A stretch of 64,000 nucleotides of DNA from Candidatus Treponema caballi (GTDB lineage: Bacteria; Spirochaetota; Spirochaetia; Treponematales; Treponemataceae). The notes under the pieces were generated by a model that had not been told where the DNA came from, did not search any database, and saw nothing but the letters and a program-made list of their open reading frames with translations. Positions within the stretch are counted from its first letter, which is position 1. Every line of letters starts with the position of its first letter. Shown in pieces: positions 5,418 to 16,025 of the stretch. The DNA is taken from assembly GCA_018066285.1 (NCBI GenBank), contig JAGHRS010000029.1, positions 1-64,000 of the forward strand. The letters run 5' to 3'. The translations under genes and the position numbers were made by a program.

Positions 5418-6592
5418 CGCACGCCCCCTGCCTTAAAACTGTCACAGGCCTTATTGCGTACTTCGTTTTCTAAAGAAAGCGGAACAGCCCCGTACAGCGT
5501 GTCCTCAAAGGTGAGGAAGTCATTCACGTAAAGCGCGGCCTTGTCGGAAACACTTGCGATGCGGACTGCTTTCGGCGCGCCATCTGGCTGTACAAGCGGA
5601 TTGATGTAGCGCTGCTTCACTTTCATGCTGATGTTGAACGCATCAGGGAGCGGAAAGTCCACATGCTCGATGCGCTCCATCGTACGATACGTACGGTAGA
5701 GCTTCGAGAAGCGCGTATTCTCGAAGCGGGTCGCAGCTGTGTCAAAGCGCGCCATGACTTCGGCTTCGGAAAAGCGCATCGTGTCTTCTTCAGTGAGCAG
5801 ACCGAGCGCAATTGCTTCCTTAACGACTTCGGCCAGCAGCTGGAGACAGAGCTTATTTTCGTTCAGCTGCAGAATATGACCGATCAGGCAGAAATGAAGC
5901 GTATATTCCTCAGCTGCGGCTATCGTGCGGAACCCGAGCTCCGGCTGGCCGTCTTCGTTTTCAAGTACGGCAAGGTCATTATAGACGCGCTCTATCTCGT
6001 CAAACGTCCAGCTGCCGTCAAGGGCGAGGCCGGACGGAAACATGTACTCAAGTCTGTCTGCTGAAAGCTGCGGAATCTCGTTGTCGGCCACCGGATACTG
6101 ATGGTAGTCGGCCACCTGCTCTGGCGTCAGTCCATCCGCTTTAAGGAGGGCGGCGAGCGCTTTGTCCCGCTTTACAATGGCGGCATTGTCTTCTTCTGTT
6201 GCTTCCTGCTTGAGCGCGTCGCCCTTACGGAAGTCGGCCACATGACTGAACACAGGCGTCGAAATGTCATGAAGGAGACCTGCCAGCGTCTGAGCCTTGT
6301 CGCGCGTAAAATGCCACACGATGAGCGCGACTCCCAGGCTGTGGTCGTAGCGGCTGTAATAAAAGCGGTTCCTGTACAAACGCGTCCAGTCTGTGCCGCA
6401 AAGAAGGCCGACGCCCTTTAAACGCTGCATGAGAGGAAGAGCAAGGTACGGCTGTATCCATTCCGGAAACTCAGGCGAGAGAATCTTGAAATAACGCGCT
6501 TTGATTTCATCCTGCTTTTCCTTCTCATCCCCTTTTGCAGGATGTGCGGTCAGCATGTACTGCCAGTCGTACCTGTCGTAGAAGTTGCTCAA
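5414..6592 (-). CDS. HD-domain phosphohydrolase
   Basis: 392 residues, starting with TTG inside the end of mscS (TTGA overlap) after a GGGAG. The N-terminal half carries an HD metal site: RYDHSLGV with H84, LLHDISTPVFSHVAD with H108-D109, and a later SADRLEYMF that can supply the last Asp. The spacing recalls dGTPase and SAMHD1-like enzymes, which act on nucleotides, but the substrate here cannot be read from sequence. The position ahead of folA would suit a nucleotide or pterin role. The C-terminal half has no motif I recognise. Confidence 0.8.
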   Translation of the reverse strand: MSNFYDRYDWQYMLTAHPAKGDEKEKQDEIKARYFKILSPEFPEWIQPYLALPLMQRLKGVGLLCGTDWTRLYRNRFYYSRYDHSLGVALIVWHFTRDKAQTLAGLLHDISTPVFSHVADFRKGDALKQEATEEDNAAIVKRDKALAALLKADGLTPEQVADYHQYPVADNEIPQLSADRLEYMFPSGLALDGSWTFDEIERVYNDLAVLENEDGQPELGFRTIAAAEEYTLHFCLIGHILQLNENKLCLQLLAEVVKEAIALGLLTEEDTMRFSEAEVMARFDTAATRFENTRFSKLYRTYRTMERIEHVDFPLPDAFNISMKVKQRYINPLVQPDGAPKAVRIASVSDKAALYVNDFLTFEDTLYGAVPLSLENEVRNKACDSFKAGGVR

Positions 6593-14038: not shown

Positions 14039-15280
14039 CTACTTACAACCGCCCACCGTACGTCCGCCCCATTCTTGCGAATGCTGCTTTTCCCATGCAA
14101 TTGCCGCGTCAAAATCTGCCTCGGGCGCACAGTTCTTCTCTATATTCAGCGCCATTCCGTGAAGCCGGCGCAGGCACTCTGACTTGTCGTTGTAGCCGAG
14201 CTTGCTTCTTTCAATGCTGTCGTGCAGAACGCGTATTGATTCGTCGTATACGTTAAGCGGAACCGGAAACGGATGGCCGTCCTTACCGCCGTGTGCAAAA
14301 GAAAAGCGCGCCGGATCAGTAAAGCGCGACGGCGTTCCATAGATAACCTCGCTTACAAGAGTGAGCGACTGCAGCGTGCGCGGACCAAGACCTGGCGTCA
14401 GAAGCAGGTTCTCAAATGAAGCAGGCGGCGTCTCGTACGCTGTCGCAAGCACGGCACCAAGACGCTTCAAGTCAACATCTTCGCGCCGCACTTCATGATG
14501 AGATGGCATGACGACACTTCTGGCAGCCTCAGCTTTTGAAAGCATAGTGCCGTCCTCCGCAGTGAAAAGCTCCAGCTGACCGGACATTTTTCCGCATTCC
14601 TTGATGATGCGCGACGGCTCTTCGTGCGCTATCTCAAGGATGGAACCACGCGTTTTATCTGCAGCGGAAGCCGTCAAATTCAGGATTTCACCCCTGTTTT
14701 CACCGACAACGCCGGCATGCGGTTCTTCAATAAAAGAGCGGAGCCCTTCTGAGCACCAGTGGTACCGCCGCGCTGTCTTTAAAAGAGGATTCATTCCCTG
14801 CTGGACGACAGTCCAGTCGCCTTCGCAGGTAAGGATGAAATTATGCTGATACAGCTGGAAGCCGTCCTGGACAGCGGTATTGTCAACTTTTGCAGTAAGC
14901 TTGCTGGCACGTACCAGTTCATCGCCATTGAGACCGGTCGCATCTGAAAGGAACATGAGCTCGTCAGGCGTGCGCCTGGAATACTTGCCCCGGCCGCCGC
15001 ACACAACAATGCCGAGTTCCTTTGCACGCGCGTTCAGGCCGCGTTTCAAAGCGTACATGACACTTGTAGTGATGCCGGAAGAATGCCAGTCCATGCCGAG
15101 CACTGCGCCCAGGGACTGAAACCACAGCGGGTCGCTCAGGCGCACCAGAACTTCTTTCCGGCCATAATTCATGATGAGGCTTTCTACTATAAGCGTGCCC
15201 ATGTCGCGCATGCGGTCAGCAAGCCACTTAGGCACTGTTCCCGTATGCAGCGGCAGGTCAGCGTGTCCTGTACTGCGCAT
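14039..15280 (-). CDS. DUF763 family protein with helix-hairpin-helix motif
   Basis: 413 residues from ATG 15280. It begins MRSTGHADLPLHTGTVPKWLADRM, the DUF763 signature, and keeps the conserved stretch KYSRRTPDELMFLSDATGLNGDELVRASKLTAKVDNTAVQDGFQLYQHNFI. LLTPGLGPRTLQSLTLVSEVIYG, near residue 285, is a helix-hairpin-helix typical of non-specific DNA binding. The family is shared by archaea and scattered bacteria and its reaction is not known; DNA binding is inferred from the motif. It has no Shine-Dalgarno site and a promoter 6 nt before the ATG, so its mRNA is probably leaderless. Confidence 0.85.
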   Translation of the reverse strand: MRSTGHADLPLHTGTVPKWLADRMRDMGTLIVESLIMNYGRKEVLVRLSDPLWFQSLGAVLGMDWHSSGITTSVMYALKRGLNARAKELGIVVCGGRGKYSRRTPDELMFLSDATGLNGDELVRASKLTAKVDNTAVQDGFQLYQHNFILTCEGDWTVVQQGMNPLLKTARRYHWCSEGLRSFIEEPHAGVVGENRGEILNLTASAADKTRGSILEIAHEEPSRIIKECGKMSGQLELFTAEDGTMLSKAEAARSVVMPSHHEVRREDVDLKRLGAVLATAYETPPASFENLLLTPGLGPRTLQSLTLVSEVIYGTPSRFTDPARFSFAHGGKDGHPFPVPLNVYDESIRVLHDSIERSKLGYNDKSECLRRLHGMALNIEKNCAPEADFDAAIAWEKQHSQEWGGRTVGGCK

Positions 15281-15286
15281 GATTTT

Positions 15287-15315
15287 ACTATACACCTGTA
15301 TTGTAAAGAAAGCAA
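15287..15315 (-). promoter_or_regulatory. Promoter of the DUF763 gene (leaderless)
   Basis: Minus strand: TTGCTT (15310-15315), 17 nt, TATAGT (15287-15292), then 6 nt to the ATG at 15280. Confidence 0.6.
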
Positions 15316-15318
15316 TGT

Positions 15319-15403
15319 GTCAAATTGACTCTAATGACATGTGCCAATATGATACAACTAACGCATTGTTGCATTTTGACACAATATTGCGTGTCATTTT
15401 GAC
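15319..15403. promoter_or_regulatory. Candidate upstream activator sites for the sigma-54 promoter
   Basis: GTCAAATTGAC (15319-15329) and GTCATTTTGAC (15393-15403) share GTCA-N3-TGAC and lie 74 nt apart, about seven helical turns. Between them is TGACAC-N8-GTGTCA (15377-15396), overlapping the second. They sit some 125-200 bp before the sigma-54 promoter, the normal distance for an enhancer-binding protein. Confidence 0.5.
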
Positions 15404-15516
15404 CCATCTACATCACTTTTTGAAGTATGTCCTGCCTGTTTTTTACGTCAGTTGTGGCTGTAAAAAGTAGTTTTTTGTCAATTCCCCACTTTTTTTTAAT
15501 CTTTTTTCCAAAAAAG

Positions 15517-15534
15517 TTGGCACGCCGTTTGCAA
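15517..15534 (+). promoter_or_regulatory. Sigma-54 promoter of hsp20
   Basis: TTGGCACG-CCGT-TTGCAA matches the RpoN consensus at every fixed position, and the GG (15519-15520) and GC (15531-15532) are separated by the required 10 nt. The +1 is expected near 15544, giving a leader of about 50 nt. Confidence 0.85.
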
Positions 15535-15593
15535 TATGATTTGTGTAAACAAAATGTGGAAAACAAAAATCCACAAGTTTGCAGGAGGCTATT

Positions 15594-16025
15594 ATGAACA
15601 CATTATCATTCTTCAATCCACGTTTCACATCAGATCTGTTTGATGTCATCGACCGCAACTTCGGCACTTTTGCAGATGAAACTACCGGCTCATTCATGCC
15701 ACGCGCAGACGTTATTGAAAAAAAAGACGCTTACGTCATCGACATGGAGCTGCCAGGCTTCGCTGAAGAGGACATCGCAATAGATCTTAAGGACAGGGTG
15801 CTTTCCATTGCATCTGCAAAGAAAGCTAAGGACGAAAAAAAGCCAGATGAGAACACCTGGCTTCTTAAGGAGCGTCACGCAATGAACTTCAACAGAAGTT
15901 TCACACTGCCTGATGACATTGATGCTGAGAATGTAGCTGCAAGCCTTAAGAATGGCGTGCTGACAATAAGCATTCCACGCAAGGCTGCATCTCAGACCCG
16001 CAGAATCACGCTGCAGAGCGCTTAA
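15594..16025 (+). CDS. Small heat-shock protein, Hsp20 family
   Basis: 143 residues from ATG 15594 after AGGAGG. It is an alpha-crystallin-type chaperone: N-terminal segment with SLFNP-like features (NTLSFFNPRFTSDLFDVIDR), crystallin domain from about residue 38 (PRADVIEKKDAYVIDMELPGFAEEDIAIDL) to 128, with the conserved NGVLTISIPRK. It holds unfolding proteins until ATP-dependent chaperones act. Control by sigma-54 is indicated by the promoter 60 nt upstream and is uncommon for this family. The stop codon lies only 2 nt from the convergent gene, so no terminator fits between them. Confidence 0.93.
   Translation: MNTLSFFNPRFTSDLFDVIDRNFGTFADETTGSFMPRADVIEKKDAYVIDMELPGFAEEDIAIDLKDRVLSIASAKKAKDEKKPDENTWLLKERHAMNFNRSFTLPDDIDAENVAASLKNGVLTISIPRKAASQTRRITLQSA

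Follow-up and report, generated by a model that had tools for sequence, protein, structure and literature searches.

Enhancers of the NtrC and NorR type are inverted repeats with a short spacer and a 7-3-7 geometry, and lie about 100-250 nt upstream of −24/−12 promoter elements. Among described systems, the closest to the locus reported here is the Rrp2-RpoN-RpoS pathway of Borrelia burgdorferi, in which an Rrp2-type enhancer-binding protein (EBP) is encoded beside a kinase gene and sigma-54 drives the expression of a sigma-70-family factor, as would be the case in the treponemes. Borrelia rpoS is activated without an enhancer (PMC3037356), whereas the treponeme genes described below, hsp20 and the sigma factor gene SIG1, carry conserved enhancer arrays and are chaperone and stress targets. 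The EBP of Treponema denticola has been described as unstudied (PMC12070737). Small heat-shock genes are usually controlled by sigma-32, HrcA or CtsR, as the first-pass annotation of this DNA stated. As a general rule this holds; nevertheless, one small heat-shock gene, E. coli ibpB, had already been reported to have a sigma-54 promoter (Kuczynska-Wisnik 2001, as cited in PMC4316790). The ibpB operon is mainly sigma-32 dependent, whereas the treponeme hsp20 has an enhancer array and a wiring that extends across much of the phylum.

The window, a 64-kb stretch of contig JAGHRS010000029.1, comes from Candidatus Treponema caballi, whose genome is 2.9 Mb and 99.8% complete; the named hsp20 relatives belong to Treponemataceae and Spirochaetaceae. 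The hsp20 gene (15594-16025, + strand) encodes 143 aa with an alpha-crystallin/HSP20 domain (Pfam PF00011, 4.2e-26). Upstream of it on the + strand is the −24/−12 element TGGCACGCCGTTTGCA (15518-15533; TGGCACG-CCGT-TTGCA), which matches the sigma-54 consensus at 12/12 positions. The GG at 15519-15520 and the GC at 15531-15532 are separated by 10 nt, and the ATG at 15594 lies 60 nt after the end of the element, exactly as the first-pass annotation had described. Transcription would be predicted to start near 15544 (+ strand), and a likely ribosome-binding site, AGGAGG, is present at 15583-15588 on the same strand. Neither a heat-shock sigma promoter nor a CIRCE promoter was recognized at hsp20. 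A sigma-70-like match, TTGACT-N17-TATGAT, overlaps the palindrome array described below, with 1.3 such matches expected by chance.

When the window was searched for TGGCACGNNNNTTGCW with at most one mismatch, one match was found in 64 kb, the hsp20 element itself, compared to 0.8 matches expected in shuffles of the window. The looser pattern TGGCAYNNNNNTTGCW gave 12 matches genome-wide compared to 9 for the reversed control, the genome-wide statistics being drawn from pattern searches. Since both counts are near chance, the case must stand on conservation. The hsp20 match is weak by the window alone, and it is conservation that lifts it, as a predicted sigma-54 promoter, above chance.

At 32 loci of the family and order, a few of them from the same genomes, the highest-scoring site was taken from the 300 nt preceding hsp20. 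A sigma-54 site of at least 10/12 was found at 32/32 loci and of at least 11/12 at 29/32, while 10/12 was reached by 1.7% of dinucleotide-preserving shuffles and never on the opposite strand. In a second set, 31 of 32 further upstream regions reached at least 10/12, the exception being a second hsp20 copy in genome G023, which brings the two sets of the order to 63/64. Across the scans of hsp20 and of the two sigma factor genes SIG1 and SIG2, shuffle rates were 1.1-1.8%, and the opposite strand gave 0, 0 and 1 sites. The conserved promoter is not simply unchanged DNA because its distance to the hsp20 ATG varies among relatives. Beyond the order, hsp20 genes of phylum families f6, f8, f11, f26 and f29 carry both a sigma-54 site and a palindrome; the sampled hsp20 genes of families f14, f25, f33 and f42 were found without this combination. 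A general bacterial trait was rejected as an explanation, as only 5/72 loci (L047-L118), nearly all from other phyla, reached at least 11/12. In a Borrelia-like genome, which has a 0.9-Mb chromosome and low GC, an hsp20-like gene (L361 match 6194-6580, G153:C1) has TGGTATGGTTTTTGCA (10/12) a short distance upstream of its start; the gene is absent from two sister genomes.

The divergent neighbor of hsp20 is a DUF763 gene (14039-15295, − strand; Pfam PF05559), with only some 20 nt between its start and the first palindrome. Conservation owed to this neighbor was considered and discarded: DUF763 occurs at only 1/32 hsp20 loci, that of the window itself, and therefore the promoter-palindrome module belongs to hsp20.

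The repeat GTCA-N3-TGAC occurs exactly twice in the window, at 15319-15329 and 15393-15403. The two copies are 74 nt apart (7.05 turns at 10.5), and from their centers it is 194 and 120 nt to the −24 element downstream, close to the distance of about 125-200 bp given in the first-pass annotation. The proposal that these repeats stand seven helical turns apart holds for the outer pair; it skipped two weaker middle copies, and the unit is a four-copy array of a 17-bp palindrome, TGTRTCA-N3-TGAYACA, of which GTCA-N3-TGAC is the core. The copies, about 24 nt apart, start at 15316, 15340, 15367 and 15390 (spacings of 24, 27 and 23). Copy 1, TGTGTCAAATTGACTCT (15316-15332), contains the previously noted GTCAAATTGAC at 15319-15329 and scored 19.7 with the position weight matrix (PWM), compared to a shuffle 90% quantile of 4.4. 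Copy 2, TGTGCCAATATGATACA (15340-15356; one mismatch to TGTRTCANNNTGAYACA), and copy 3, TGTTGCATTTTGACACA (15367-15383), are the two that had been passed over, and copy 4, CGTGTCATTTTGACCCA (15390-15406), contains GTCATTTTGAC at 15393-15403.

In the cross-validation, the PWM was trained on SIG1 promoters only or on hsp20 promoters only, with the 99% shuffle level as threshold. The SIG1-trained PWM placed 32/32 hsp20 regions above threshold, and the hsp20-trained PWM 27/30 SIG1 regions. The pitch of adjacent palindromes differs by promoter, being 23-24 nt in 17 pairs at hsp20 and exactly 40 nt in 27 pairs at SIG1. Exact palindromes were found at 20 sites in 59 genomes compared to 2 for the reversed control. 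By coordinates, 15 of the 20 lie upstream of hsp20 or SIG1, and a 16th, at a contig end in G012, stands before the start of a SIG1 gene that has a sigma-54 site of its own. Palindromes at G000:C73 and G006:C79 were considered unrelated, one being inside an ORF and the other intergenic without a sigma-54 site. The predicted upstream activator sites at hsp20 are this cross-validated palindrome array. The treponeme palindrome shares the inverted-repeat 7-3-7 geometry and the upstream placement of NtrC/NorR-type enhancers, but its half-site is TGTRTCA and not the TGCACCA of NtrC, and its arrays differ in their promoter-specific 24- or 40-nt pitch, their putative EBP and their targets.

SIG1 (C4:23155-23991; 279 aa) is RpoD-like with regions 1.2, 2, 3 and 4, and is divergent from groES in many genomes. 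An upstream sigma-54 site of at least 10/12 was present in 29/30 genomes and then in 20/21 further genomes; the −24 element of SIG1 in G020 is degenerate (TAGCAT, 9/12). A second sigma-70-family gene, SIG2 (C5:114768-115589, 274 aa; L144:3703-4593, G000:C5:114702-115593), has an upstream sigma-54 site of at least 10/12 in 22/22. No palindrome was found at SIG2 with either the SIG1- or the hsp20-trained PWM (0/22), which ruled out its membership of the same palindrome regulon. In a maximum-likelihood tree, SIG2 and Borrelia RpoS were grouped (100/99), on a Borrelia branch so long that the program issued a warning, and SIG2 scores below the NCBIfam RpoS cut-off. SIG1 formed a separate clade on the RpoD side, not with RpoS, and RpoD itself stood apart. 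The same scan detected TGGCACGATTTTTGCG upstream of Borrelia-like rpoS, resembling the treponeme sigma-54 sites, and no palindrome there. This result is in line with the published finding that Rrp2 activates rpoS without an enhancer (PMC3037356), and Borrelia-like rpoS serves as a positive control of the scan. In the 1.1-Mb genome G025, which is without hsp20, a SIG1 relative (L250:1164-2027; G025:C1:1104663-1105526) keeps TGGCATGATATTTGCT (11/12) 80 nt before the match start, with no palindrome seen upstream. We take the gene order of G025 to be T. pallidum-like.

The rpoN gene, whose absence would have refuted the reading of the first-pass annotation, is present in the host genome (TIGR02395, 320.7 bits over the cut-off). 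Together with the conservation of both the promoter and the repeats upstream of hsp20 in related species, this supports the sigma-54 control of hsp20 that the first-pass annotation had predicted. It had also placed the activator gene outside the window, and the three strong sigma-54 AAA+ EBP genes of the host genome are indeed all located elsewhere. EBP1 (G000:C47:80094-81611; L141:2095-3615) has a GAF-AAA+-HTH, NorR/NifA-like architecture with GAFTDA in place of GAFTGA. EBP2 (G000:C63:58869-60215; 449 aa) is a response regulator-AAA+-Fis HTH (HTH_8) protein with GAFTGA and an adjacent histidine kinase gene. EBP3 (C66, L143:3517-4692) has an AAA+ domain with GAFTNA and no recognized HTH, and was missed by the Walker A pattern used. 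EBP2 is thus the only EBP of the host genome with both GAFTGA and an HTH, and was found in 45/45 good genomes; across genomes its loop reads GAFTGA, GSFTGA or GAYTGA, and its recognition helix shows hardly any variation. It is 54% identical over 449 aa to the Rrp2 of the Borrelia-like genome, compared to 42-44% for EBP1 and EBP3 when only the AAA+ region is aligned, and the recognition helix of Borrelia-like Rrp2 also reads GRKTLH. By pairwise identity, EBP2 is the predicted orthologue of Borrelia Rrp2. An identification of EBP2 as AtcR was set aside, because in the literature AtcR belongs to the LytTR regulators and Rrp2 is the T. denticola EBP for sigma-54. By elimination and conservation, the activator that recognizes the palindrome is most likely this Rrp2-type EBP2.

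Palindromes were also found near rrp2 itself, in only two genera. G020 and G027 each have an exact palindrome 25-26 nt ahead of murG (L268:4392 and L273:3948), the head of a murG-cvpA-holB-kinase-rrp2 operon, and in G008 a degenerate palindrome precedes the murG operon. This arrangement suggests Rrp2 autoregulation in lineages of the G020/G027 type only.

Taken together, we consider it probable, with considerable confidence, that hsp20 is served by a real sigma-54 promoter and a palindrome array, most likely bound by an Rrp2-type activator that would also drive SIG1. In such a circuit, the histidine kinase encoded beside EBP2 would phosphorylate the Rrp2-type regulator, which would bind the TGTRTCA-N3-TGAYACA array 120-194 nt upstream of the hsp20 promoter, loop to RNA polymerase-sigma-54 and open the promoter at 15518-15533. 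The same activator, at palindromes of 40-nt pitch, would drive the RpoD-like SIG1, and one signal would then increase the expression of a holdase chaperone directly and, by way of SIG1, that of other stress genes. The sigma-54 promoter of SIG2 would operate without a palindrome, as that of Borrelia rpoS. The shared enhancer and promoter at hsp20 and SIG1 point to a conserved and previously undescribed stress circuit that would be related to Borrelia RpoN-RpoS.

A different activator for the same promoter and enhancer, the GAF-type EBP1 sensing a small molecule or the redox state, is unlikely. It would be consistent with the GAF-AAA+-HTH architecture of EBP1, with its presence in 40/45 good genomes, and with the GTCA-N3-TGAC core, which is presumably similar to that of NorR sites in E. 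coli. However, in three genomes that are 95-99% complete (G018, G028 and G035) the only strong matches were EBP2 and a short EBP, with no EBP1 in the census, yet these genomes keep palindromes at SIG1 and sigma-54 sites. Moreover, GAFTDA replaces GAFTGA in EBP1 in nearly all genomes read. Variants of EBP1 that carry GAFTDA may nevertheless retain activity, so the case against it is not absolute. The system does not look like a NorR regulon: EBP1 scores 368 bits where the NorR cut-off is 476, and the targets are hsp20 and a sigma factor, not nitric-oxide genes. An EBP1-like gene (42% identity) in G017 (G017:C26:13670-15052), possibly a degenerate activator, fell short of 1e-30 with the sigma-54 activator model.

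It is quite improbable that the palindromes bind a regulator other than an EBP, such as a BosR/Fur-like activator or a stress repressor, with the EBP acting from solution. Such an arrangement has a parallel in Borrelia, where BosR binds upstream of rpoS and Rrp2 needs no enhancer (PMC3037356), and would be in line with the lack of an HTH in EBP3 and with palindromes that lie 25-82 nt from groES in two genomes, G000 and G006. In contrast, nearly every sigma-54 site has its array 116-280 nt upstream, a distance from which a repressor would not usually act, and only EBP2 matches the palindrome in its distribution and conserved recognition helix. In other genomes 73-226 nt or more separate the palindromes from groES, with no fixed position, and a role of the palindrome as a groES operator was rejected. 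A chance match, with hsp20 served by an ordinary sigma-70 promoter, could appeal to the single match expected in the window and to the sigma-70-like sequence, but is extremely improbable and in practice already refuted by the comparative data, namely near-invariant conservation across many genera and families at variable distance and an independently cross-validated upstream motif.

Expression data from T. denticola fit the preferred Rrp2-sigma-54 circuit. In arrays, the sigma factor TDE0937 was induced 2.8-, 21.8- and 14.0-fold by heat, oxygen and osmotic downshift, respectively, and Hsp20 TDE1029 was induced 9.5-, 8.5- and 6.7-fold (PMC2965109); the text of that paper makes no mention of RpoN. 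TDE0937, whose locus number is near that of groES (TDE0934), is the likely SIG1 counterpart from its annotation and this locus number. By its annotation, TDE1029 is the likely orthologue of the window's hsp20. The T. denticola kinase Hpk2 is reported to autophosphorylate more under anaerobic conditions (PMC12070737). A simple path from oxygen to Hpk2 to phosphorylated Rrp2 does not fit, because Hpk2 favors anaerobic conditions and hsp20 and TDE0937 are induced by oxygen.

Among papers available without subscription, none was found that had described hsp20, SIG1 or SIG2 of treponemes as controlled by sigma-54, and the literature on hsp20 with sigma-54 in Desulfovibrio and Geobacter yielded no clear precedent. 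The new elements are an enhancer array that hsp20 and SIG1 have in common but with a pitch specific to each promoter, the connection with an alternative and an RpoS-like sigma factor, the predicted assignment to Rrp2 and the breadth across the phylum. Somewhat tentatively, and at slightly less than even confidence, we propose that Rrp2-sigma-54 is the ancestral stress switch of Spirochaetota, in which enhancer arrays set off the expression of hsp20 and of one or two alternative sigma factors. The RpoN-RpoS cascade that serves virulence in Borrelia would then be a derived remnant without enhancers, and G025 would keep only the sigma-factor branch.

These findings give treponeme RpoN and Rrp2 a possible role and offer a mechanism by which Hsp20 and TDE0937 would be induced together, as McHardy et al. 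had observed without explaining it (PMC2965109). The palindrome becomes a predicted Rrp2 site, for Borrelia Rrp2 as well, in which the GRKTLH helix is retained though its known target is without a site. Over much of the phylum, small heat-shock control would pass through an enhancer-dependent switch and not through sigma-32, HrcA or CtsR. The findings also suggest a route by which the RpoN-RpoS cascade may have originated.
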